Origin: Microbispora hainanensis
Lineage (GTDB): Bacteria > Actinomycetota > Actinomycetes > Streptosporangiales > Streptosporangiaceae
Length of the DNA stretch: 64,000 nt
NCBI RefSeq assembly: GCF_036186745.1
Contig: NZ_CP108086.1
Span: forward strand, 868,001 to 932,000
Direction of reading: 5' to 3'
The translations under genes and the position numbers were made by a program. Below the pieces are notes generated by a model. The model was not told the DNA's origin. It saw nothing but the letters and a program-made list of their open reading frames with translations, and did not search any database. Positions 37,919 through 49,976 of this stretch are shown piece by piece (positions within the stretch are counted from its first letter, which is position 1; every line of letters starts with the position of its first letter).

Positions 37919-38012
37919 GCCGTCATCCTTCCACTGCCGCCGCTCCGGCAATCTCCCCGCCCTTTCCCGTTCGCCGGTCAAATGATCGTGCTCCCGGCTA
38001 GGATGCGGTCAC

Positions 38013-38031
38013 TTAGGTTAGCCTTACCTAT
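38013..38031. promoter_or_regulatory. Iron box (IdeR/DmdR-type operator)
   Basis: TTAGGTTAGCCTTACCTAT matches the 19-base consensus TTAGGTTAGGCTAACCTAA closely and ends nine bases before the first siderophore gene. Under iron sufficiency the Fe(II)-regulator would bind and block transcription. Confidence 0.88.
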
Positions 38032-38040
38032 GGAGGGCCG

Positions 38041-39222
38041 GTGCGGCTGTACCTCACCACGCTCAACCCGACCGATTCGGTGACCGGCGGGTTCCTCCCC
38101 GCCGCGGCCGCGCTGGGCTGGGACGTGACGATACTCACCGACCAGCCTGATCGGTATCCGGGCCACGACGTCGTGGCGGCGGACGTCCGCGACTTCCGGG
38201 CCGTGATCGACGCGGTGGCCGCCCACCACCGGCCCGACGTGATCTTCTCCAACTCCGACCATCTCCAGGCCGCGACCGCGCTCGCCGCCGAGTATTTCGG
38301 CCTGCCCGGCAAGGACTGGCGGGCCTGCGTCACCGCCAAGAACAAGGCGCTCACCCGCCGCGCCCTCGCCGCCGTCGAACCGGTCAGGTCCGTACGGATC
38401 CCTCCCAGCGCGGACCCGGCGGAGGGCCTGCCGGACGGCCTGCCGTACCCGGTGGTGGTCAAGCCCGCGCAGGGCGTGGCCAGCGAGGACGTCGTGCTGG
38501 TGGACGGGCCCGACGCGCTGGCCGCGGCCGTCGCGGCGGCGCGGGAGCGGCGGCCGGGGGAGGTCGTGGTCGCGGAGGAGTTCCTCGACGGGCCGGTGCG
38601 CACACTGGAGACGCTCGGCGACGACGAGACCCGGCGCGTGCTGGGCGGGTTCGCCACCACGCTGGGCCCGCTGCCGCACTTCGTGGAGGAGCGCCTCGAC
38701 TGGCGGCCCCCCGACACCGGCCACCTCGCCCATCTCGGCGCGGCGCTCGACGCGGCCGGGATCGGCTTCGGCGTGTGCCACACCGAATATGCCGTCACCC
38801 GCGACGGCCCCCGCGTCATCGAGATCAACTATCGGCTGATCGGCGACAACTGCGACTTCCTGCTCGCGGACCTGCTCGGCGTGCCGCTGCACGAGTGGAT
38901 CCTGCGCGTCCACGCGGGCGAACCGGTGTCCTCCTTCGACCTCGACTGCCTGCGCGCGGCGTACAGAGCGGCGTACGGGTCCGTGGTGAGCCTCGTGGCC
39001 GAGCACTCCGGCACGGTCACCGGCGCGCCGCCGGACCTGTCCATGGAGAAGGACGGTGTGCGGCTCCGGCACCGGGCGCTGCGCGAGATCGGCGATCACG
39101 TCGAGGTGACGGGGACGAACCGCGACTACCTCGGCCTGCTCCGCGCCGTCGGCCCGGACCACGCGAGCGTCGACGCCGCGATCGGCGCGTTCAGGAAGGA
39201 GCACCCTTGGGTGCTCGCATGA
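38041..39222 (+). CDS. ATP-grasp ligase of the siderophore operon (PvsA-like)
   Basis: A 393-residue ATP-grasp enzyme. The N-terminal preATP-grasp domain runs to about residue 100. The ATP-binding part includes YPVVVKPAQGVASEDVVLVD near residue 140 and EVVVAEEFLDGPVRT, and the metal-binding end is GPRVIEINYRLIGDN near 258. PvsA of the vibrioferrin pathway belongs to this class and joins an amino acid to a carboxylate. It is the first gene after the iron box, starts at GTG following GGAGGG and runs into the next gene. Substrates (Ala and 2-oxoglutarate in vibrioferrin) are an inference. Confidence 0.87.
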   Translation: MRLYLTTLNPTDSVTGGFLPAAAALGWDVTILTDQPDRYPGHDVVAADVRDFRAVIDAVAAHHRPDVIFSNSDHLQAATALAAEYFGLPGKDWRACVTAKNKALTRRALAAVEPVRSVRIPPSADPAEGLPDGLPYPVVVKPAQGVASEDVVLVDGPDALAAAVAAARERRPGEVVVAEEFLDGPVRTLETLGDDETRRVLGGFATTLGPLPHFVEERLDWRPPDTGHLAHLGAALDAAGIGFGVCHTEYAVTRDGPRVIEINYRLIGDNCDFLLADLLGVPLHEWILRVHAGEPVSSFDLDCLRAAYRAAYGSVVSLVAEHSGTVTGAPPDLSMEKDGVRLRHRALREIGDHVEVTGTNRDYLGLLRAVGPDHASVDAAIGAFRKEHPWVLA

Positions 39223-40817
39223 TCCCGGCGGCACGCGACCAGGCCACCGAGCGCGAGCGCTACCTGGCCGCGCGGGTGCTGAACGCCCTGCTGCGGGAGG
39301 ACTACGCCGGGATCTCCGCCAGGGTCACCCACGACAAGGACGGGGTCGCGATCGTCCTCGCCTCGGGACGGCGGGTGGGGCTCGCCCCGGGCAGTCCGTT
39401 CCAGGACTTCGCCACGGCCCCGCACGAGCGCCTGCGCCTGGCGGAGGTGCTGGAGACGCTGGAGGCCGTCGCCCACCCCGCCGACGCCGAGGGGGTCGCC
39501 GCCTTCGAGCGGGAGTGCCACGACGCGCTCGCGGCCCTGGAGGCCCACCACCGGACGCGCGGCGAGGTGGCCCGGCGGCTGCGCGGGCGTCGCGGCCTCA
39601 TCCGCTACGAGTCGCTGGCCGCGACCGTGGACCACCCGCTCTATCCGACGGCCCGCGCCCGCCTCGGGATCTCCCCCGCCGGCCTGGCGGCGTACGCGCC
39701 CGAGTTCGCCCCGGAGTTCGCGATGCGGTGGGCGGCCGTGCCGCGCGAGGGGGTGACCCTCTCGCGGCCCGATCTCCCCCGCTGGTGGCCCGCGCCACGT
39801 GACGTGGGGCTGGCGCCCGATCTGGCCCGCACGCACGTGCTCCTCCCCGTCCATCCGCTGACAGAGCCGCTGGTGGCCGGGCTTGCCGGGCTCGTGACCG
39901 CGCGCGAGGCTCACCTGGTCGTACGGCCGACCCTGTCGACCCGTACGGTCGAGGTGGCCGAGCGCGTGCATCTCAAGGTGCCGCTCCCGGCCAGCACGCT
40001 GGGCCTGCGCAACCGCCGGTCGATCAAACCCGGCACCCTGCGCGACGGCGCGCTGGCCGAGACGCTGCTGCGCGCGATCCTCGCCCGCGAACCCGGCCTG
40101 CGCGTCACGCTCGCGGACGAGCAGACCTACGGGCACGCCGGGCACGAATACCTGGGCTGGCTCGTCCGCTACCTGCCCGAAGGGGAGATCGTGCCGGTCG
40201 CCGCCCTGCTCGCGCCCCTGCCTGACGACGGGCGGCTCGTCCTGCACGAGGTGGCCGGGCGTCACTACGGCGGCGACACGGAGGCGTTGCTGCGCGACTA
40301 CCTCACGGCACTGCTGGAGTGGAACGTCACGCTGTTCGTCCGATATGGCGTCGCGCTGGAGGCCCACCAGCAGAACCTCGCGCTGGTGTTCGGCGACGGG
40401 CCCATGCGGCTGCTGGTCAAGGACAACGACGGGCTGCTCGCCTCGCCCCGGCGGCTGCACGCGGCGGGGATCGAGCCGCCCGGCTTCGGCGACGAGCGCA
40501 TGCTGGCCGACGACCCGTACGCGCTCGCCGACGTCTTCGTGACGATCACCCTGCACCTGGCCGCCATGGCCGTGGCCCACGGCGCGCTGCCCGGGTCCGC
40601 CGCCACGCTCGTCGCGCGGGCGCTGACGGCGGCGCTGGAGCCGTACGGGGACGACCCGATGGCCCGGCTGCTGCGGGCGCGCACGCTGGAGGCCGCCCGC
40701 CTCACCGGCAAGTCGATGGTCGTCGCCGGGACGCTCGTGGCCAAGGACCGCACCGGGGCCAGGGACGTCAACAAGTTCTACGGCACGACCGGTCCCAACT
40801 ACCTGAGGGGTGCCTGA
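39207..40817 (+). CDS. NIS siderophore synthetase (IucA/IucC family), first
   Basis: About 536 residues. The catalytic core shows VLLPVHPLTEPLVAG near residue 212, RPTLSTRTVEVAERVHLKVP near 240 and the Glu/His metal/ATP motif YGVALEAHQQNLALVF near 385, followed by LVKDNDG and a FERRIC-type C-terminus GKSMVVAGTLVAKD. These enzymes condense citrate-type carboxylates with amines through an adenylate. TTG 39207 is preferred because GGAAGGAG ends five bases before it, while ATG 39219 (overlapping the previous stop) is 17 bases away. TTG sits in the loop of an 18-base palindrome. Confidence 0.9.
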   Translation: MGARMIPAARDQATERERYLAARVLNALLREDYAGISARVTHDKDGVAIVLASGRRVGLAPGSPFQDFATAPHERLRLAEVLETLEAVAHPADAEGVAAFERECHDALAALEAHHRTRGEVARRLRGRRGLIRYESLAATVDHPLYPTARARLGISPAGLAAYAPEFAPEFAMRWAAVPREGVTLSRPDLPRWWPAPRDVGLAPDLARTHVLLPVHPLTEPLVAGLAGLVTAREAHLVVRPTLSTRTVEVAERVHLKVPLPASTLGLRNRRSIKPGTLRDGALAETLLRAILAREPGLRVTLADEQTYGHAGHEYLGWLVRYLPEGEIVPVAALLAPLPDDGRLVLHEVAGRHYGGDTEALLRDYLTALLEWNVTLFVRYGVALEAHQQNLALVFGDGPMRLLVKDNDGLLASPRRLHAAGIEPPGFGDERMLADDPYALADVFVTITLHLAAMAVAHGALPGSAATLVARALTAALEPYGDDPMARLLRARTLEAARLTGKSMVVAGTLVAKDRTGARDVNKFYGTTGPNYLRGA

Positions 40818-40820
40818 CCC

Positions 40821-42464
40821 GTGGACGGCCTGCTCCTCGACAATCACACCCGCGATCCGCACGCCGCCCTGGCCGAGGAGGCGGCGCTCGGGGCGCTGCT
40901 GCGCTGCTGGCTACGCGAGGTCGCCATCCCCGGTGGGCACGTGCGCGCCGCGGGGCCCCACCTCACGCTCCGCGTGGCGGGGACGCCGGTGCGCGTCCGC
41001 GTCCACGGCGGCATCGCGCTGCGCTTCGACGGCCCGCCCGAGCACCTCGCGGAGGGGCGCTGGCGGCCCCTCGGCCTGTCGCCGCTCGTCGCGCTGGTGG
41101 AGCAGGAACTGGACGGGGGCCTGGACGGGGGCAACGAGGAGTTCGCCGCCCAGGTGCGGGCCGGGCGGGAGGCGGTCGCCGCGATCCTGGCCGCCCGCGC
41201 GCGGGCCGTACCGCCCGCCGACCCGTGGCTCGCCTCCGAGCAGGCCCTCGTGGCCGGGCACCCGTTCCATCCCGCGCCCAAGGCGCGCTCGGGCGACGAC
41301 TGGCCGGACTACGCGCCCGAGACGCACGCGCGGTTCGCGCCGCGGCTGCTCGGGGTGCGCGCCGACCTGGTGGCCCAGGAGGGCGACACGGCGGCGCTCG
41401 ACACATTCGGGAACGCGCCGGACGGATATGTCCCGCTGCCCGCCCATCCCTGGCAGCTCGGCCTGCTGGCCGCCGAGCTGCGCGGGCCGTTCGCGGACGG
41501 GCGGCTGGTCGACCTCGGGCCCGGCCCCCGCGCGGTCGTGCCCACGTCGTCGGTCCGGACCGTGTACGACCCCGGCACGGGCATGTGCCTGAAGTTCAGC
41601 CTCGACGTGCGGATCACCAACTGCGTGCGGAAGAACGCCTGGTATGAGCTGCGCGGCGCGGTCGAGCTGACCCGGCGGCTCGCTCCCGTCTTCGAGCGGC
41701 TGGCCCGGCGCTTCCCCGGCACGCGGTGGCTGCCCGAGCCCGGCTATCGATCGGCCACGCTCGGCACCCGGCTGCTGGAAGGGCTCGGGGTGATCGTCCG
41801 CACCGGTCCGTGGGCGGTCTGCGGGCCGGGCACCACGCCGGTGCTCGCGGGCGCCCTGGCCGCCGGTGCGGACGGGGTGCCCGAGGCCGTCCTGACCCGC
41901 CGTACGGCCGATCCTGTGGCGTGGTGGGGGGCGTACGTCGAGCGCGTGGCGTTCCCGGTGCTCGACGCCTTCTTCCGGCACGGGGTCGTGCTCGAAGCGC
42001 ACGTGCAGAACGTGCTCGTCGGGTTCGACGCCGCTGGATGGCCCGTCGAGGCGGTCTTCCGCGACCTGGAGGGCACCAAGCTGGTCACCGGACGGCACGA
42101 CCTGACCGGCGTGCCGGGCGGGGTGGCCGCCCCTTTGTCGTACGACGCCGCGCGGGGCTGGAACCGGGTCGCCTACTGCCTGTTCGTCAACCACCTGGCG
42201 GAAGTCGCCGCGACGACGGCGGGCACGGCCGACGGCGTCCTGCGCGCGTTGTGGGCGGTCGCCCGGGAGTCCCTGGAGCGCTACGTCGCGGACCACGCGG
42301 CGGGTCTCGACGCGCTCGCGCCGCTGACCCGGGTGCTGGCCGGGGCGCCGCTGCCGGCCAAGGCCAACCTGGGCGTGCGCTGGGCGAGGGCGGCCGACCG
42401 GGCCGCCGGATATGTCCCCGTCCCGAACCCGCTCCGCGTGGACGCGGAAGGAGAGCGCCGATGA
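40821..42464 (+). CDS. NIS siderophore synthetase (IucA/IucC family), second
   Basis: A 547-residue synthetase. Core motifs: GHPFHPAPKARSG near residue 151 and PLPAHPWQLGLL near 203, then TSSVRTVYDPGTGMCLKFSLDVRITNC near 240 (substrate/ATP loop), HGVVLEAHVQNVLVGF near 390 and the FRDLEGTKLV acid. Two NIS synthetases in one operon imply two condensations on a citrate or similar core. GTG 40821 starts 3 bp after the previous stop, and the end overlaps the decarboxylase ATG by four bases. It is distinct in sequence from the first, so the two probably have different substrates. Confidence 0.92.
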   Translation: MDGLLLDNHTRDPHAALAEEAALGALLRCWLREVAIPGGHVRAAGPHLTLRVAGTPVRVRVHGGIALRFDGPPEHLAEGRWRPLGLSPLVALVEQELDGGLDGGNEEFAAQVRAGREAVAAILAARARAVPPADPWLASEQALVAGHPFHPAPKARSGDDWPDYAPETHARFAPRLLGVRADLVAQEGDTAALDTFGNAPDGYVPLPAHPWQLGLLAAELRGPFADGRLVDLGPGPRAVVPTSSVRTVYDPGTGMCLKFSLDVRITNCVRKNAWYELRGAVELTRRLAPVFERLARRFPGTRWLPEPGYRSATLGTRLLEGLGVIVRTGPWAVCGPGTTPVLAGALAAGADGVPEAVLTRRTADPVAWWGAYVERVAFPVLDAFFRHGVVLEAHVQNVLVGFDAAGWPVEAVFRDLEGTKLVTGRHDLTGVPGGVAAPLSYDAARGWNRVAYCLFVNHLAEVAATTAGTADGVLRALWAVARESLERYVADHAAGLDALAPLTRVLAGAPLPAKANLGVRWARAADRAAGYVPVPNPLRVDAEGERR

Positions 42465-43555
42465 GCATCGAGGTGCCGGCGGGCGTGCGGAAGGTCGCCG
42501 AGTCGCTGGACGACGTCCCCGCCTACGTCTACGACCTGGCCGGGCTCGACCGTCACGCGGCCGCCGTACGGGCCGCACTGGCGGACACGGAGATCTGCTA
42601 CGCCGTCAAGGCCAATCCCGACCCCGAGGTGCTGCGGGTGCTCGCGCCGCACATGGACGGCTTCGAGGTCTCATCCGGGGGCGAGTTCGCGCACGTCAGA
42701 GCGGTGCTGCCGGAGGTGCCGCTGAGCTTCGGCGGGCCGGGCAAGACCGGCGCGGAGCTGGCCCTCGCCCCCTCGGCCCACCGCTGGCACGTCGAGAGCC
42801 CGGCCGAGCTGCGGCGGCTACGCGAACCGGCCGACGTGCTGCTGCGGGTCAACCTCGACGTGCCCGTCACCGGCGCGGCGCTCGCCATGGGCGGCGGCGC
42901 CACGCCGTTCGGCATGGACCCCGGCGGGATCGCCGAGTGCCTGACCCTGCTCGGGTCCTCACCGGTGCGGCTGCGCGGCATCCACGCCCACCTCGCGAGC
43001 GGCCTGGCCGCCCCTGACCTGCTCGCGCTCGCCGAGGCCGTCCTGGCGTACGGCAGGAGCCTCGGGCTGCGCGAGTTCAACCTGGGCGGCGGCATGGCCG
43101 TCTCCTACACCCGCCCGGAGGAGCTGTTCGACTGGGCGGCGTACGGCGCGGGCCTGCGGGCGCTGGCCCGGCCGGGCGAGACGCTGCGCGTGGAGCCGGG
43201 ACGCGCCCTGACGGCCTACTGCGGTTGGTATCTCACGACCGTGCTCGACGTGAAGCGCGTGCACGGGGAGCGCTTCGCCGTCCTGTCCGGCGGCACCCAC
43301 CACCTGCGGACGCCGGTCACGAAGGGCCACGACCAGCCTTTCGTGGTGCTGCCGAGGGGTGAGGACGGCGAGGACGGCCCGGTGACCCTGGTGGGGCGGC
43401 TCTGCACCCCCAAGGACGTCTTCGCCCGCCGCGTCACCGCCTCGCTCGCCGCCGGCGACGTCGTCGCCTTCGCCATGGCCGGCGCGTACGCCTGGAACAT
43501 CTCCCACCACGACTTCCTCATGCACCCGAAGCCGGCGTTCCACTACCTGAGCTGA
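42461..43555 (+). CDS. PLP-dependent decarboxylase (fold III, PvsE/LysA-like)
   Basis: A 364-residue alanine-racemase-fold decarboxylase. The PLP lysine is in ICYAVKANPDPEVLRVLA near residue 42. The glycine-rich phosphate loop EFNLGGGMAVSY is near 205, and the C-terminal catalytic Cys lies in LVGRLCTPKDVFA near 312. In vibrioferrin synthesis PvsE removes the carboxyl of a seryl-citrate intermediate to give ethanolamine; here the gene ends the same kind of operon. ATGA overlap with the NIS gene shows tight coupling. DAP decarboxylase activity is less likely because of context. Confidence 0.88.
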   Translation: MSIEVPAGVRKVAESLDDVPAYVYDLAGLDRHAAAVRAALADTEICYAVKANPDPEVLRVLAPHMDGFEVSSGGEFAHVRAVLPEVPLSFGGPGKTGAELALAPSAHRWHVESPAELRRLREPADVLLRVNLDVPVTGAALAMGGGATPFGMDPGGIAECLTLLGSSPVRLRGIHAHLASGLAAPDLLALAEAVLAYGRSLGLREFNLGGGMAVSYTRPEELFDWAAYGAGLRALARPGETLRVEPGRALTAYCGWYLTTVLDVKRVHGERFAVLSGGTHHLRTPVTKGHDQPFVVLPRGEDGEDGPVTLVGRLCTPKDVFARRVTASLAAGDVVAFAMAGAYAWNISHHDFLMHPKPAFHYLS

Positions 43556-43557
43556 CT

Positions 43558-45315
43558 TCACGCGCTCACGTCGACCACGACGCGAACCGTGGCCTGGTCC
43601 GTCTCCGTGGTGCGGACCGTGAGAACGGCCTGCCAGCGACCCGGGAACGGCAGGTTCATCTGGCCGATGTAGTGCCCGCCGGCGCCCTGGAGCTCCACCG
43701 GGATCGGCCCGAGGTCCCGGCCTGTGAGGGTCATGGCCGCGTGCACCTCCGGCACGTTGAGCGGCGCGCCGTTCGGGCCGAGCACCGACAGGTGTAGCTG
43801 CGCCGGCCCCACCTTCGGTGGAAACACCTCGAGCAGCACCGCACCACGCGCGGCGGGGCCGGAGCCGGCCGAGAACGGCACGGGTTCGGGCACGACCGGC
43901 ACCGGCGCCGCCGTATTCGCGGGCGCCGCCGTCGAGCGGCGCCCGGCGTACGCCGAGCGGGCCGGCTCCATGGCGACCAGCGCGGCGGACAGGCCGAGCA
44001 CGACGGCGCCCACCGCCGTCTCGGCCAGCAACCGCCGGTAGAACGCGTAGAGCTGGTAGGGGTCGGGGCCGCCACGACGCCGGTTGCCGCCCGTGCCGTA
44101 GTGGCGGGCGACCCATCCGCGGGCGGCGGCGCCGAACGCGACCAGCACGACCACGAGGGCGACCTTCGCCAGCAGAACCCGGCCGTACGCGGTGGCGAAC
44201 AGCGTCGGCAGCGACCCGACCTGCCGCCATGCCTGGAACAGACCGGTGGCGGCCATGACCGCCACGCACACCAGCGCCGTGTGCGAGAACCGGGGCACCG
44301 CCACGCGCAGGGTCACGGCGTCGCGGGCCGGCACGTGCGTCATGGCGAGCGCGACGAGACCCCCGAGCCAGACCGAGCCGGCGACGAGGTGCACGACGTC
44401 GACCGGCACGGCGAACCCGCGGGCCTGGCCCGTCACGCTGTGGTTCGCGAGGCTCCAGGTCGTGGCGAGCGCCGCGGCGGCCGCGAGCACCGCCGCCGCG
44501 GCCGTCCACCGCGTGCGGCGGTCCGGCGCGTCCGGGTAGCGGTTCAGCAGCCAGACGAGCGCGGGCGCCGCGGCGAGCAGCAGAGCGACGCGAATCCCGA
44601 GGGCACGGCCCAGGCCGGTGGCCCACGTCGTGGACAGCAGCCGCGGGTCGAAGACGCCCGCCAGGTCGCCGTCGGCCACGTACGGCCCGTACAACAGGCC
44701 GGAGGCGATCGCGGCGGCCAGGCCGGCGCCCCAGCCGGCCCACAACGCCCGCCGGGCCGGCCGTCGCCGCGCACCGGCCGGCCAGCACCACGCCAGGTAG
44801 AAGGCGGTGCCGACCAGCACGGCGAACCCTGCGAACGCGGCCCACCGGGCGGCGCCGTACGCGGTCGCGACATCGCCGTGACGATCGTCCGGGGGCGTGA
44901 CGCCGGCCGGCCGGCTGCCCGGCGTACCGACGGTGAACGTGTAGGCGCCCTGCACCGGGTGGCTGTCGGAGGACACCACCCGCCACGAGACGGTGTAGAC
45001 GCCGTCGGCGAGTTTCCCGTTCAGCGGGGCCTCCACCGACGTGGCGTCGCCCGCGCGGTGGGCCGGTGCGCCGATGCCGATGCGGGCGCCGTCCGGGCCG
45101 AACAGCCGCACGCCGTCCGGCGGCACGGTCACCGGGTCGGTGAACTGCAGCAGCAGCGTCCGAGGGGAGTCCTGGTAGATCTGGCCGTTGGCCGGCGCGG
45201 CGTCGATCAGTTCCGCGTGCGCCCAGGCAGGGCTCGCCACCATGAGGGACACGGCGGTGGCTAACCCTGCGAGGAGGACGGCGAGCACCGCGCCGCGCGT
45301 CCTGGTGCGGGTCAT
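43558..45315 (-). CDS. CopC-CopD fusion copper resistance protein
   Basis: A 585-residue membrane protein. The signal peptide ends at ASPAWA and the mature N-terminus begins HAELIDAAPANGQIYQDSP, so the first His of CopC is exposed after cleavage. The second copper motif is VVSSDSHPVQGAYTF. CopD follows, with eight or more helices from about residue 155 to 445. A C-terminal extracytoplasmic domain (AQLHLSVLGPNGAPLNVPEV) resembles the FixH/YtkA fold. It would bind copper outside and pass it across the membrane. It overlaps the YcnI gene by four bases. Confidence 0.9.
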   Translation of the reverse strand: MTRTRTRGAVLAVLLAGLATAVSLMVASPAWAHAELIDAAPANGQIYQDSPRTLLLQFTDPVTVPPDGVRLFGPDGARIGIGAPAHRAGDATSVEAPLNGKLADGVYTVSWRVVSSDSHPVQGAYTFTVGTPGSRPAGVTPPDDRHGDVATAYGAARWAAFAGFAVLVGTAFYLAWCWPAGARRRPARRALWAGWGAGLAAAIASGLLYGPYVADGDLAGVFDPRLLSTTWATGLGRALGIRVALLLAAAPALVWLLNRYPDAPDRRTRWTAAAAVLAAAAALATTWSLANHSVTGQARGFAVPVDVVHLVAGSVWLGGLVALAMTHVPARDAVTLRVAVPRFSHTALVCVAVMAATGLFQAWRQVGSLPTLFATAYGRVLLAKVALVVVLVAFGAAARGWVARHYGTGGNRRRGGPDPYQLYAFYRRLLAETAVGAVVLGLSAALVAMEPARSAYAGRRSTAAPANTAAPVPVVPEPVPFSAGSGPAARGAVLLEVFPPKVGPAQLHLSVLGPNGAPLNVPEVHAAMTLTGRDLGPIPVELQGAGGHYIGQMNLPFPGRWQAVLTVRTTETDQATVRVVVDVSA

Positions 45316-46043
45316 GGCGAGAGCCGCGCGGCGGTGTCCGCCTCCGCGAGCGGCGCGGAGGCCGGCGCCGGGGCGCGCCGGCGCAGCCCGGTCGCGGCCG
45401 CCGTCAGCAGCGCGAGCGCGCCGAGCGCGAGGCCGGCCCAGCCGAGCAGGCGAGCGACGCCGTCGTCGGTGGGGGTGGCCGCGGCGGGCGCGGTGGCCTG
45501 CGGCGCGTCCGGCGGCTTGACGTAGATCACCGGCGCCGGGTGTTCGGGCTGTGGAGCGCCGGCCTCCGGGATGTCGATCCAGCGGACGACCTCACCGTTG
45601 CTGTAGGTCTGCAGCGCCTTGAACACGAGCTCGCCGGGCGTGGTGGGCAGCGGGCCGAGGGACACCTCGAAGACCTGGTACTCGCCGGGCTTGATGGCGC
45701 CGCCCTCCCACACGATGCCCGTGACGGCCTTGTCGGCGGCCTCGTCCTCGGACCCGGCGGACGCGGCGTTCGGCAGTTGCCGGGTGGCGACAGTGGCCTT
45801 CCAGCCGGGGACGGGGCGCACGGAGACGCTGGAGAGCTGGGCGTTCTCCGGGAAGACGACCTCGACGCGGGTCGTGTTCGCGTCCGCGCGCTCGTCGGGC
45901 ACCTTGAACGCGAACGTGCCGCGGCCGCCGGTGGTGGCGACCGAGGGGGAAACGGTGACGTGGGCGAACGCCGGCAAGGTGGGGGCGAGCAGGACGGCGA
46001 CGCCGGCGACGAGCGTCGCGGCGACGGCGCGGATGGGCTTCAT
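45312..46043 (-). CDS. YcnI family copper-associated protein (DUF1775)
   Basis: A 243-residue exported protein. The signal peptide ends with LPAFA and the mature chain starts with the copper-ligand His: HVTVSPSVATTGGRGTFAF. The domain continues with VPGWKATVATRQLP and ends near residue 170 at VVRWID, the Trp-containing part of the YcnI site. A Pro/Ala linker and one C-terminal helix with a basic tail anchor it to the membrane. ATG 46043 has AAGGAG seven bases upstream. It is coupled to CopC-CopD, matching the common ycnI-copCD arrangement. Confidence 0.92.
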   Translation of the reverse strand: MKPIRAVAATLVAGVAVLLAPTLPAFAHVTVSPSVATTGGRGTFAFKVPDERADANTTRVEVVFPENAQLSSVSVRPVPGWKATVATRQLPNAASAGSEDEAADKAVTGIVWEGGAIKPGEYQVFEVSLGPLPTTPGELVFKALQTYSNGEVVRWIDIPEAGAPQPEHPAPVIYVKPPDAPQATAPAAATPTDDGVARLLGWAGLALGALALLTAAATGLRRRAPAPASAPLAEADTAARLSP

Positions 46044-46140
46044 GCGCGGGCTCCTTGCGCGTATCGGTATGTGGAGCCCGTGCCGGCCAGGTGCTGTCAC
46101 GACTGACCGGCACGGGTTCGGAGGCAGGTTCAGCCGGTGA

Positions 46141-47520
46141 CTACGCCGTTACATTGACGATCGTCACGAGGCCGATCATGCCGTTGGGTCCCTCGGAGTG
46201 GGAGAAGATGTGGCAGTGCAGCAACCACTTACCGGGCTCTTTGGGCTGGAACACGATGTCGTACGTCTGTCCGACGCCGACGTTGAGCGTGTCCACGGTG
46301 TACGGTGACGCGAGCTTGTTGCCGTCTTGGGCCACGACCTGGAACGCCGCGCCGTGCAGGTGGATCGGGTGGATCATCTCGGGGCCCGCGCCGATCAGCC
46401 GGATGTGGACCTTCTGGTTGACCGCCGCCGCCAGCGGCGCGGTCGCCGGGTACGACTTGCCGTTGAAGGTGAACCCGTTGGAACCGTCGCCGATCTGGAT
46501 GGTGTAGTGCTTGTCGGCGGCGATGTCGCCCAGCGTCGGGGTCACCAGGAGCGCGCCGTAGAGGCCCCGGCCGACCTGGCCGCCGCCCATGTGCGAGTGG
46601 TACCAGTGCGTGCCGGTCGACTTGGCGGTCCACTCGTACGTGTAGGTCTCGCCGGGCAGGATGTGCGGCTGGGTGATGTCCGGCACGCCGTCCTGCGCGT
46701 TCGGCAGCACCATGCCGTGCCAGTGCACCGCCGTGTGCTCCGGCAGGTCGTTCTGCACGATGACCCGCACCTTGTCGCCCTCGTTGACCTTGATGGTGGG
46801 GCCGGGCACTATGCCGTTGAACGTGTACGCCAGCTTCACCACCCCGGGCGAGACCTCCCAGTCGGTCTGCGACATGCACAGCTTGAACACCTTGACGGAG
46901 CCGACCACCTCGTAGGCGGCCAGCCGGGTGCCGTCACCCTGGTCGGCGCCGAGGACCGGGTCGTCGCAGGGCGCGGAGCCGGGCGTCGGCGTCGTCGGGG
47001 TGACGCTCGGGCTCGGGCTCACGCCCGGGCTGACACCCGGCGACGGGCTGCCGCTGGGCGAACGGCTCGGGCTCGGCGACGGGCTCGCGCTCGGCGAGCG
47101 GGACGGCGACGGCGATGCCGTTCCGGCGTTGATGATGCCGGTCATGTACGGGTGGAAACTGCAGTAGTAGTTGTACGAGCCTGCGGCGACGATGGTGACC
47201 GTGAAGGTCGCCCCGGGCGGCAGGTCCGGGGACGTGAAGTCGCCGCGGATGGCGTGGACGGTACCGTCCGTCTCCTGGTTGACGAACGTGACCGTGTCGC
47301 CGGGTGCCAGCGTGAGCACGTCCGGCGTGAACGCGAAGTTCTTGATCGCGATCGTGTGGTTCGCCGCTTGCGCGGCCTTCGGCGCGAACAGTGTCGTGCC
47401 GGAGACCAGGATCGAGAGCGCGATCACGCCGATCAGCATCAGCCGGCGTAACGGTGGCGAGGCGTTGGAGAGTGCGCGCCGGAGGGCCGCGAAGGGCTCC
47501 GGTGCGGTCGTATCAGACAT
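46141..47520 (-). CDS. Cupredoxin-multicopper oxidase fusion, secreted
   Basis: A 459-residue protein. An N-terminal membrane/signal segment (about residues 27-48) is followed by a plastocyanin-like domain with type 1 ligands HAIRGDF and YYCSFHPYM (to about 130), a Ser/Pro-rich linker of about 45 residues, and a two-domain multicopper oxidase. Its copper motifs are intact: HWHGMV, HWYHSHMGG, HPIHLHG and LLHCHIFSHSEGPNGM. Such enzymes oxidise Cu(I), phenols or metals using oxygen; the extra cupredoxin could be the built-in electron donor. GAGGAAG lies near the ATG. It belongs to the copper block, 97 bp before ycnI. Confidence 0.9.
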   Translation of the reverse strand: MSDTTAPEPFAALRRALSNASPPLRRLMLIGVIALSILVSGTTLFAPKAAQAANHTIAIKNFAFTPDVLTLAPGDTVTFVNQETDGTVHAIRGDFTSPDLPPGATFTVTIVAAGSYNYYCSFHPYMTGIINAGTASPSPSRSPSASPSPSPSRSPSGSPSPGVSPGVSPSPSVTPTTPTPGSAPCDDPVLGADQGDGTRLAAYEVVGSVKVFKLCMSQTDWEVSPGVVKLAYTFNGIVPGPTIKVNEGDKVRVIVQNDLPEHTAVHWHGMVLPNAQDGVPDITQPHILPGETYTYEWTAKSTGTHWYHSHMGGGQVGRGLYGALLVTPTLGDIAADKHYTIQIGDGSNGFTFNGKSYPATAPLAAAVNQKVHIRLIGAGPEMIHPIHLHGAAFQVVAQDGNKLASPYTVDTLNVGVGQTYDIVFQPKEPGKWLLHCHIFSHSEGPNGMIGLVTIVNVTA

Positions 47521-47614
47521 GGGTGTACTTCCTCGTCTACTGTGGAATGCACGCGCGCACGCGTCGAGGGCCGAATGGACCGGCGTGGGTGGTGCGCGAT
47601 GGGGGCCCTGGTCA

Positions 47615-47649
47615 GGGGGAGGGACCGTCCGCTTCACGGTCCCTCCCCC
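47615..47649 (-). terminator. Hairpin after the interrupted beta-propeller gene
   Basis: GGGGGAGGGACCGT and ACGGTCCCTCCCCC form a perfect 14-bp stem with loop CCGCTTC, 18 bp beyond the upstream gene's stop. No U-tract follows, so partial read-through into the oxidase gene is possible. Confidence 0.65.
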
Positions 47650-47666
47650 GCAGTGCGGGCCCGCGG

Positions 47667-49976
47667 TTACTCACAGACCCCCGGGTTGATGGGGTTGAGC
47701 TGGTTACACGTGAGCTGGTTCGCCATCTCCGGCGTGGCGTTCTGCACCCAGCCGTTGTAGACGATCGGGTAGGGGAGGACGCCCTGCCCGCCCATGCCGT
47801 TGTAGGCGGTCACGACGTCATCCGTGGCGGTGCCCGCGGCCGAGTCGAGAACCATCCTGCCGACGATCGTGGCGTCGGCGGGGTCGCCGTCGCCGTTGGG
47901 GTCGGTGTCGATCACGGCGAGAGTGTTGGCGAACTTGCTCGACGCGTAGGCGTAGTAGCCGCCGCCGCGCTTGGCGCCGAAGTTGATGCCGTGACAGCCG
48001 GAGTCGCACGGCAGGTACTTGACCACCTTGTCGGTCTTGGTGTCGATGACGGCGATGTTGCTCGTGAGCGTGTTAGCCACGAGCACCACGTTGCCGTCAG
48101 GGCTGACCGGGATCTGGATCGGCAGGCCGCCGAAGCTCCCGTTCGTCGCCCCGGTCACCATGTCGTAGTTCGCCCACAGGTCGATGGCCTTGTAGCCGAC
48201 GTTGGTGCCGCTGTCGCTGTGGCACGCCGGCCCGTCCAACGAGACGCAGGAGACGCTCTGGCCGAGGAAGTTGGCCACGTAGTACTTCGAGGCGTCCGGC
48301 ATCATGCCGGTCGCGATGGGCAGCTGCTCGGTCTGCGCCTCCTGGATCGAGCCCGACGGCACGTCGACGATCGTCGAGTTGTTGTGGTTGACGTTCGGCG
48401 TGACCATGGTGTGCCCGTCGGCGCTCATCCAGTGCGCGTGCGGGTGAGCCGGTGTCTGGCCGGGACCCTGCACCAGGATGCGCCTGTCGATCTGCGTGGC
48501 ACCCGGACTCAGTTCGACCACCGCGTTGCCGGCGTTGATGGCGACGTGGAGCTGGTCGGTGTCGGGCCGGGTCATCACATGGGATGGGTCCGGGCCGACC
48601 TGGATAGTTCGCACGAGCTTACCCGTGGTCCGGTCGAACACGGTCAGACGGTCGGAGAACCATTCCGTCTGATAGATGTACTTTCCGTCGCGGTCCGACC
48701 ACATGTTGTGCGGATTGTTGAGGTTGATCTGTGGTAGCGCCACCTTCCGGGTCACGGTCCAGTTCTGCACGTCGACCCTGGTCGCCGCGCCGGACTTGGC
48801 CTTGCCGGCGTATTTCTCCATCTGGGTGTCGACCCAGAGCTCGCCGACGCCGGGCACGCTCGGCCGCTGGGTCAGCGCGGGCAGCGTTACGCCCTCGTTG
48901 AACTTGCTGTTGTAGTACGCGTCGAGGCTCGGAATGAGCACCGGCTGCTCGTTCGCGTCATACTGCAGGATCGGCGCGGGCGGGTAGTAGGGGTTCCAGT
49001 TCTTGGTCTGCGTGTTGCTGTAGACCTGCCAGTTGTCGGGTGTGGTGATCCGGAAGAACTTCTGCACGAGCTCCTGCACCACGTCGGCCGAGCTGGGCAC
49101 GACGATTCCGCCCTTGACGTTGACGTTGAGCTTCTTGCCGAAGTCCAGGCCGGGCGTGAGCGGGTCGTCCACGACCACAGCGCCGAGCATGTACGGGTGG
49201 ATCTTGCAGACCCACGCGTACAGGCCCGGTTCGGTCAGGCCGGCCTCGGCGTTGCCGATGAACGCGCTGTTCTGGTCGATCGGCTGCGCGCCGACCGGCC
49301 AGATCAGGCTGGTCACCGAGTGGGCCGAGGCGGCCGCCGGTGCCGCCACCGTGAACTTCGCCTTCGGCGCGAGGCTCAGGTCCGCGGGCGCCAGCGCGGC
49401 GACCTCGTTGAGCGTGCGCATCAGGTCGAGCCCCACGGGCAGGCTGCTGAGCGGGACGGCGCTGCTGTCCGACGCCGTCAACAGCTGCTGGCCGAGCTGG
49501 TTGATCTGCGTCTTGGCGCGCTGGATCGTTGGGTTCAGGAATCCGAGCAGGCCGCCCGCCGCGTCGACCGCCGAGTTGAGCTGGTCGAGGTTGAGCAGGC
49601 TGTTAACGTTCACACCGAGGCTGCCGATCAGCGGTGCGTCGCCGTTGAGCAACGGCAGGTTGAGCAGGCCGCCGCCGAGATCGCCGTTGAGCAGCGTGTC
49701 GACGCTCAGCGGCAGCGACGCGAGCTTGGTCCGCGGCGTCACGGCGAGGCCGAGCGACCGCGTGCCGAACAGCGTCGCACCGGTGTCGAACCACGCACCC
49801 TAGTTATCGGTGAGCGTGAATTGCACCGGCGTTCCTACACCGATCGGAAGCGCCTGGGATGGGGAAGGGCTGACCCCGATTGTTACCAGAACCAGGATGG
49901 GGGTCAGCAGCCAAGCCAATCGTCGTCTGATGGCCCGGCGTCGGGCGGCGAGAATGCCGCGTGGGGGAGAATTCAT
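47667..49976 (-). pseudogene. Secreted cupredoxin/beta-propeller protein interrupted by an in-frame TAG
   Basis: AGGAGGAG precedes ATG 49976 and a signal peptide (RRRLAWLLTPILVLVTIGVS, cleavage near SQA). After VGTPVQFTLTDN the frame meets TAG (49800-49802) and then continues without shift for 710 codons: GAWFDTGATLFG, a Leu/Asn-rich repeat region, a cupredoxin-like site YAWVCKIHPYMLGAVV and a YVTN-type beta-propeller (VFDRTTGKLVRTIQVGPDP, VAVIDTKTDK-like blades). A CAG-to-TAG change would explain it. Reinitiation at GTG 49742 would give 691 residues without an export signal. Read-through or sequencing error cannot be excluded. Confidence 0.75.

Follow-up and report, generated by a model that had tools for sequence, protein, structure and literature searches.

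A predicted iron-repressed operon for a vibrioferrin-type siderophore in Microbispora hainanensis

Main finding and operon layout

This study concerns a 64-kb window of DNA (bases 868001-932000 of the complete 8.80 Mb genome of Microbispora hainanensis, Streptosporangiaceae), in which four plus-strand genes, here called A, B, D and E, span positions 38041-43555 behind a predicted iron box. Judged from their sequences, these genes very likely constitute an iron-repressed operon (ABDE) for a vibrioferrin-type polycarboxylate siderophore, which would be either vibrioferrin itself or a close analogue. The predicted products are an ATP-grasp ligase (A), two nonribosomal-peptide-synthetase-independent siderophore (NIS) synthetases (B and D) and a pyridoxal phosphate (PLP) decarboxylase (E), named after the Pvs proteins of vibrioferrin biosynthesis that they resemble. 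The elements of the operon are the following:

37999 to 38004, plus strand: candidate -10 element TAGGAT, 8 nt 5' of the iron box; TAGGAT or TAAGAT in 9 of 10 aligned upstream rows
38013 to 38031, plus strand: predicted iron box, an IdeR/DmdR-type operator, TTAGGTTAGCCTTACCTAT (pattern scan, conservation)
38032 to 38037, plus strand: ribosome-binding site GGAGGG, 3 nt before the GTG of A (read from the sequence)
38041 to 39222, plus strand: A, PvsA-like ATP-grasp ligase, 393 aa (Pfam, homology, AlphaFold2 model and fold match)
39219 to 40817, plus strand: B, PvsB-like NIS synthetase, 532 aa (Pfam, homology, tree clade with SH-aLRT 100)
40821 to 42464, plus strand: D, PvsD/AcsD-like NIS synthetase, 547 aa (Pfam, homology, PDB match, trees)
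42461 to 43555, plus strand: E, PvsE-like citryl-amino-acid decarboxylase of PLP fold type III, 364 aa (Pfam, homology, PDB match, residues)

The genes overlap or nearly touch, with A/B and D/E sharing an ATGA and only 3 bases separating B from D, and the iron box lies directly 5' of the ribosome-binding site of A and its GTG start, which a conserved N-terminus backs. All four frames are intact. A codon-usage gene caller picks the same four, an agreement that provides no independent test because A, B, D and E are among its 13 training genes. A sequence-only reading of the window had placed an operon of overlapping or nearly touching ATP-grasp, NIS, NIS and PLP decarboxylase genes at 38013-43555, behind a near-consensus iron box. 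Re-deriving the gene and box positions returned the same coordinates, and Pfam bore out the gene set. The box departs by a single mismatch from TWAGGTTAGSCTWACCTWA, which we take to be the iron-box consensus pattern, and, matching on both strands, is the sole place in the window within 3 mismatches, with none in each of 100 shuffles.

Identity of the four enzymes

Pfam recognizes IucA_IucC and FhuF domains in both B and D (IucA_IucC at 73 and 148 bits, respectively), and in E the domains Orn_Arg_deC_N and Orn_DAP_Arg_deC, the domain pair of PLP decarboxylases of fold type III. The match of A to ATPgrasp_N is weak (27 bits, at the cut-off) and is accompanied by sub-threshold ATP-grasp domains. 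IucA_IucC occurs at three places in the genome, namely B, D and a third NIS gene at 2.28 Mb, 1.4 Mb away, in a locus whose layout is presumably like that of the desferrioxamine locus.

Colinear clusters of ATP-grasp, NIS, major facilitator superfamily (MFS), NIS and type III PLP genes are carried by annotated plasmids of Vibrio sp. THAF190c, Pantoea soli (with the first gene annotated PvsA), Cupriavidus necator H16, Piscirickettsia salmonis and Rhodococcus oxybenzonivorans (with the last gene annotated as alanine racemase). Identity to the genes in the same position in these five clusters is 30-46% for A, 32-44% for B, 27-44% for D and 38-54% for E, and in the window the PvsA-type, PvsB, PvsD and PvsE genes are adjacent in this order, as a pvs cluster requires. 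A quick tree, with some long branches, was built from B and D together with six further NIS synthetases; in it the 16 B rows fall on one side of a branch with an SH-aLRT support of 100, and the 16 D rows, with AcsD outside the set, are united with a support of 98. The nearest PDB structures are AcsD for D (E-value 5.8e-58) and 6knh for E (E-value 2.6e-66); 6knk, from the same series as the latter, is SbnH (PMC7857480).

For A, an AlphaFold2 model built from 13 sequences (mean pLDDT 92.0) found its best Foldseek match in the L-amino acid ligase 3vot (TMq 0.82), and the dipeptide ligases BacD/YwfE and RizA appeared among ranks 3-7, rank 4 being a phosphoribosylglycinamide synthetase. The fold is widespread (588 matches at E-values up to 0.001), with mainly biotin carboxylases from rank 8 onwards among the matches listed. 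The modelled fold suits, without proving it, an amide-forming role involving alanine.

The pathway class and the PvsA, PvsB and PvsE assignments put forward in the sequence-only reading thus find support in colinearity and homology, in the B clade and in the citryl-pocket residues of E described below. Its PvsD assignment fared less evenly, as position and homology agree with it but D cannot be separated from AcsD in the tree.

The citryl pocket and the mobility of the decarboxylase gene

In SbnH the citryl group is surrounded by R304, S308, W309 and K347 and, more distantly, by H379 (PMC7857480). All 11 E-type sequences in the alignment with SbnH share its R304, K347 and H379, and the window E keeps three of the five contact residues, Thr and Lys replacing S308 and W309. 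The pair at this position is Ser-Trp in both SbnH and the sbn-type enzyme of Bacillus badius (2/2), Ala-Gln in the proteobacterial PvsE-like proteins (4/4) and Thr-Lys or Ala-Lys in the actinobacterial E proteins (6/6, the Thr-Lys of the window included). The Lys, Gln or Trp at the W309 position is a possible marker of lineage or of substrate.

The wider comparison relied on named loci, the best 80 of at least 495 relatives of B, a set biased towards near relatives that comprises 52 Streptosporangiales and 26 Kitasatosporales loci. The flank yielded no E in 8 of the 52 Streptosporangiales loci, two of these eight being cut by contig ends. Two whole genomes without E in the operon carry a 66-70% identical E elsewhere (G023:C1:707417-708583 and G034:C42:2648-3778), so that loss of the decarboxylase, considered for some genera, was rejected for these two genomes only. 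Two genera have E in inverted orientation beside D (locus L042, 5750-6883; locus L043, 5801-6826). E appears to behave as a separate unit, since it is inverted in two genera and found elsewhere in the genome in two others.

Iron box and regulation

The iron box is a recurrent feature of these loci. Scanning 300 bp upstream plus 60 bp of A in each locus revealed a box with up to 3 mismatches 5' of A in 82 of 100 scannable loci, several of which are the same or near-identical genomes fetched twice and hence non-independent, versus 6 of 1897 control stretches, each 360 bp long and taken from these loci; two further loci ended at contig edges and lie outside the 100. Of the 18 loci lacking such a box, four are the proteobacterial clusters and the other 14 are actinobacterial; 12 of the latter have a substrate-binding protein (SBP) gene in front of A, and A is therefore unlikely to be the leading gene in them. 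An alignment of ten upstream regions showed a conserved box core, with the TAGGAT/TAAGAT motif just before the box in every row except that of locus L037. A sigma-70 scanner called no promoter.

In the M. hainanensis genome the pattern occurs at 10 places, compared with 1 and 2 matches for a reversed control pattern. Seven of the nine other boxes adjoin iron genes, encoding SBP/FecCD transport (three), a siderophore-interacting protein, a sucrase/ferredoxin-like protein, ferritin and FTR1. The conservation of the box 5' of A and the iron genes at these seven boxes support the control of ABDE by the iron box, as the sequence-only reading had proposed, within a predicted IdeR/DmdR regulon. The remaining two boxes, with no obvious iron gene next to them, lie at G000:C1:5197049-5197067, beside a ribosomal protein S4-type gene, and at 7551506-7551524, beside an ABC transporter/MarR-like gene pair.

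Proposed pathway

We infer from sequence every reaction of the pathway, its regulation in vivo, its product and the transport of that product. Under iron sufficiency, an IdeR/DmdR repressor bound to the box just downstream of the -10 element would block transcription, and iron starvation would allow the ABDE proteins to be made. D would then adenylate citrate and esterify it with L-serine to give O-citryl-serine, which E would decarboxylate to O-citryl-ethanolamine. The ATP-grasp enzyme A would make an amide involving L-alanine, and the NIS synthetase B the second carboxylate-amine bond, with 2-oxoglutarate and alanine being joined to citryl-ethanolamine. The order in which citryl-serine is formed first is favoured because of the residues of E and the AcsD likeness of D, by analogy with AcsE (PMC7857480).

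Several points weigh against this reading. The comparison with pvs sequences runs through the plasmid-borne clusters, with pvsABCDE of Vibrio parahaemolyticus entering by name only, which places the verified producer outside the set. Adding AcsD to the tree, which was meant to split PvsD from AcsD, broke up the single clade of D rows; the tree failed in that purpose, D by itself is indistinguishable in it from AcsD/SbnE-type enzymes, and D can be called only PvsD/AcsD-like because of this split. Which bond A makes and which B makes is guesswork here, and reviews propose instead that the ester comes from PvsA and that free serine is the substrate of PvsE (PMC5577590, PMC6836290), the former, from 2017, describing the functions of the Pvs enzymes as untested. 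Because S308 and W309 are replaced in E, by a pair whose Lys is unlike the proteobacterial Gln, the exact substrate could differ. Finally, a whole-genome search with the MFS protein in the PvsC position of the Rhodococcus cluster gave a best match of 24.8 bits and no clear homologue.

Transport

No MFS gene lies between B and D in the window. An MFS protein of the PvsC position scoring above 100 bits was found in none of the 52 named Streptosporangiales loci, all of which have D, and in 14 of the 26 Kitasatosporales loci, one of the other 12 (L107) ending before D. Because the PvsC exporter is absent from the cluster, the operon is filed here as vibrioferrin-type and not as a complete pvs cluster, and the product would leave the cell via an exporter other than a close PvsC homologue.

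For the return of the ferric complex, the best candidate is an iron-boxed operon at 3.08 Mb in the same genome, 2.2 Mb away, with the gene order SBP-FecCD-FecCD-ATPase, because it combines an iron box with relatedness of its SBP, permeases and ATPase to genes of pvs clusters. Its SBP is 43-44% identical to the SBPs inside the pvs clusters of Streptomyces regalis and Kitasatospora and 38-40% identical to those of Streptomyces sp. ISL-94 and Rhodococcus, and its permeases (48 and 40%) and ATPase (62%) resemble those of the S. regalis locus. The complex is probably taken up by way of this operon. A second SBP gene, at 4.90 Mb, is absent from the box places; its product shares 31% identity with the Rhodococcus SBP.

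Comparison with known systems

The window shares with pvsABCDE of V. parahaemolyticus (PMC5812596, PMC5577590) the order A-B-(C)-D-E and homologous A, B, D and E genes, but lacks the MFS gene pvsC. Scanning the window neighbours gave no counterpart of the TonB receptor genes that lie beside the Vibrio, Pantoea, Cupriavidus and Piscirickettsia clusters, whereas the IdeR/DmdR-type iron box of the window is not found at that place in these four proteobacterial clusters. The decarboxylases differ likewise at the SbnH W309 position, with Gln in the proteobacterial PvsE-like proteins and Lys in the window E. The fuller clusters of Streptomyces regalis (L099), Streptomyces lanatus (L105) and Rhodococcus (L027) encode A, B, D and E proteins with 44-59% identity, but have an MFS gene between B and D and ABC/SBP uptake genes alongside. 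An aldolase/citrate lyase family gene accompanies three plasmid-borne pvs-type clusters (L025, 6056-6823; L026, 13572-14333; L027, 13843-14658), but the 52 named Streptosporangiales loci showed none.

In the literature, avsABCD of S. avermitilis has been described as a vibrioferrin-like polyhydroxycarboxylate siderophore cluster of four genes, three for a "siderophore synthetase component" and one diaminopimelate-decarboxylase-like (PMC9394381), a description that resembles the present operon, and the cluster table of a paper on S. tunisialbus includes an 18% vibrioferrin match (PMC7385001). A search in which most subscription papers lay out of reach found nothing on this operon in Streptosporangiaceae. 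A vibrioferrin-like actinomycete cluster (avs) being already in print (PMC9394381), the window locus would be a further case, distinguished by its reduced gene set and its lineage-specific pocket residue.

Alternative explanations

The same enzymes might instead build a new carboxylate siderophore from another amine or another 2-oxo acid or amino acid, a possibility that deserves mention although it is rather unlikely. It would fit the Lys that the six actinobacterial E proteins share where the four proteobacterial ones have Gln, the identity of only 30-48% of A and B with their counterparts in Rhodococcus and the four proteobacterial clusters, and the absence of the MFS and aldolase/citrate lyase genes that some clusters possess. 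On the other hand, all core enzymes are kept, no extra precursor gene such as sbnA or sbnB turned up among the neighbouring open reading frames given to Pfam, and the divergence broadly tracks the distance between organisms.

That the operon is decayed or silent, with no present product, is quite improbable. It contains no exporter gene, and several relatives carry the decarboxylase gene in inverted orientation or outside the flank, but the four frames are intact, B is found in all 15 same-genus genomes, the box is conserved and both genomes tested that lack E in the operon have it elsewhere. A pathway of the staphyloferrin B or achromobactin type (citrate, diaminopropionate or serine, and 2-oxoglutarate, with three NIS synthetases) is hardly to be expected and was set aside on gene set and pocket residues: the window shares with these systems (AcsD and AcsE; SbnE and SbnH) the type A NIS and citryl-amino-acid decarboxylase families, AcsD and SbnH are the nearest solved structures to D and E and D does not part from AcsD in the tree, but only two NIS genes and an ATP-grasp gene are present here, with the third NIS gene of the genome far away, whereas the sbn-type cluster of Bacillus badius combines the diaminopropionate genes sbnA/sbnB with three NIS genes and lacks an ATP-grasp gene, and the Thr-Lys of the window is Ser-Trp in both SbnH-type sequences.

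Distribution and genomic context

Returning to the vibrioferrin-type operon, its closest named B relatives are those of Microbispora sp. H13382 (90%) and M. siamensis (88%), followed by other Streptosporangiaceae. B homologues (E-value up to 1e-20) occur in 15/15 genomes of the genus. With the M. hainanensis genome counted each time, they are present in 158 of the 250 family genomes sampled, spread over 35 of 68 genera, but only in 3 of the 396 taken from across the phylum. The window has nudC beside A and UvrD-like helicase genes beyond E. The gene caller was run on 21 Streptosporangiales loci: nudC immediately adjoins A in 17 of them and is separated from it by a few genes in another three, and 14 have large UvrD-like helicase genes on the far side of E, a retention of neighbours that suggests a long stay in one place. 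Recent horizontal transfer is disfavoured by these two neighbours, although the rarity of the gene across the phylum counts against dismissing it. The predicted pathway is common and stably placed in Streptosporangiaceae. It is conceivable, but speculative, that Streptosporangiales make a distinct siderophore of the vibrioferrin family, chemically unlike the marine compound, with a Lys-for-Gln pocket in the decarboxylase and an exporter unrelated to PvsC, the pathway belonging to the core of the family by vertical descent instead of having been acquired recently.

Vibrioferrin is described as a weak, photoreactive marine siderophore (PMC6836290), which has been tentatively detected in one acidic soil, Azotobacter being cited as the producer (PMC7527475). 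Given how common an iron-boxed version is in Streptosporangiaceae, soil actinomycetes emerge as additional likely producers, and the operon offers a testable system for the enzyme functions that the 2017 review left as untested (PMC5577590).

Immediately downstream, a minus-strand block at 43558-49742 encoding a CopC-CopD fusion, a DUF1775 (YcnI-like) protein, a multicopper oxidase and a YNCE-like protein separates E from the following genes. The CopCD, DUF1775 and oxidase genes lie 3' of E in only one of nine relative loci compared (M. amethystogenes, L056), and for this reason the copper block seems to be a variable insert in a place that is stable in other respects.

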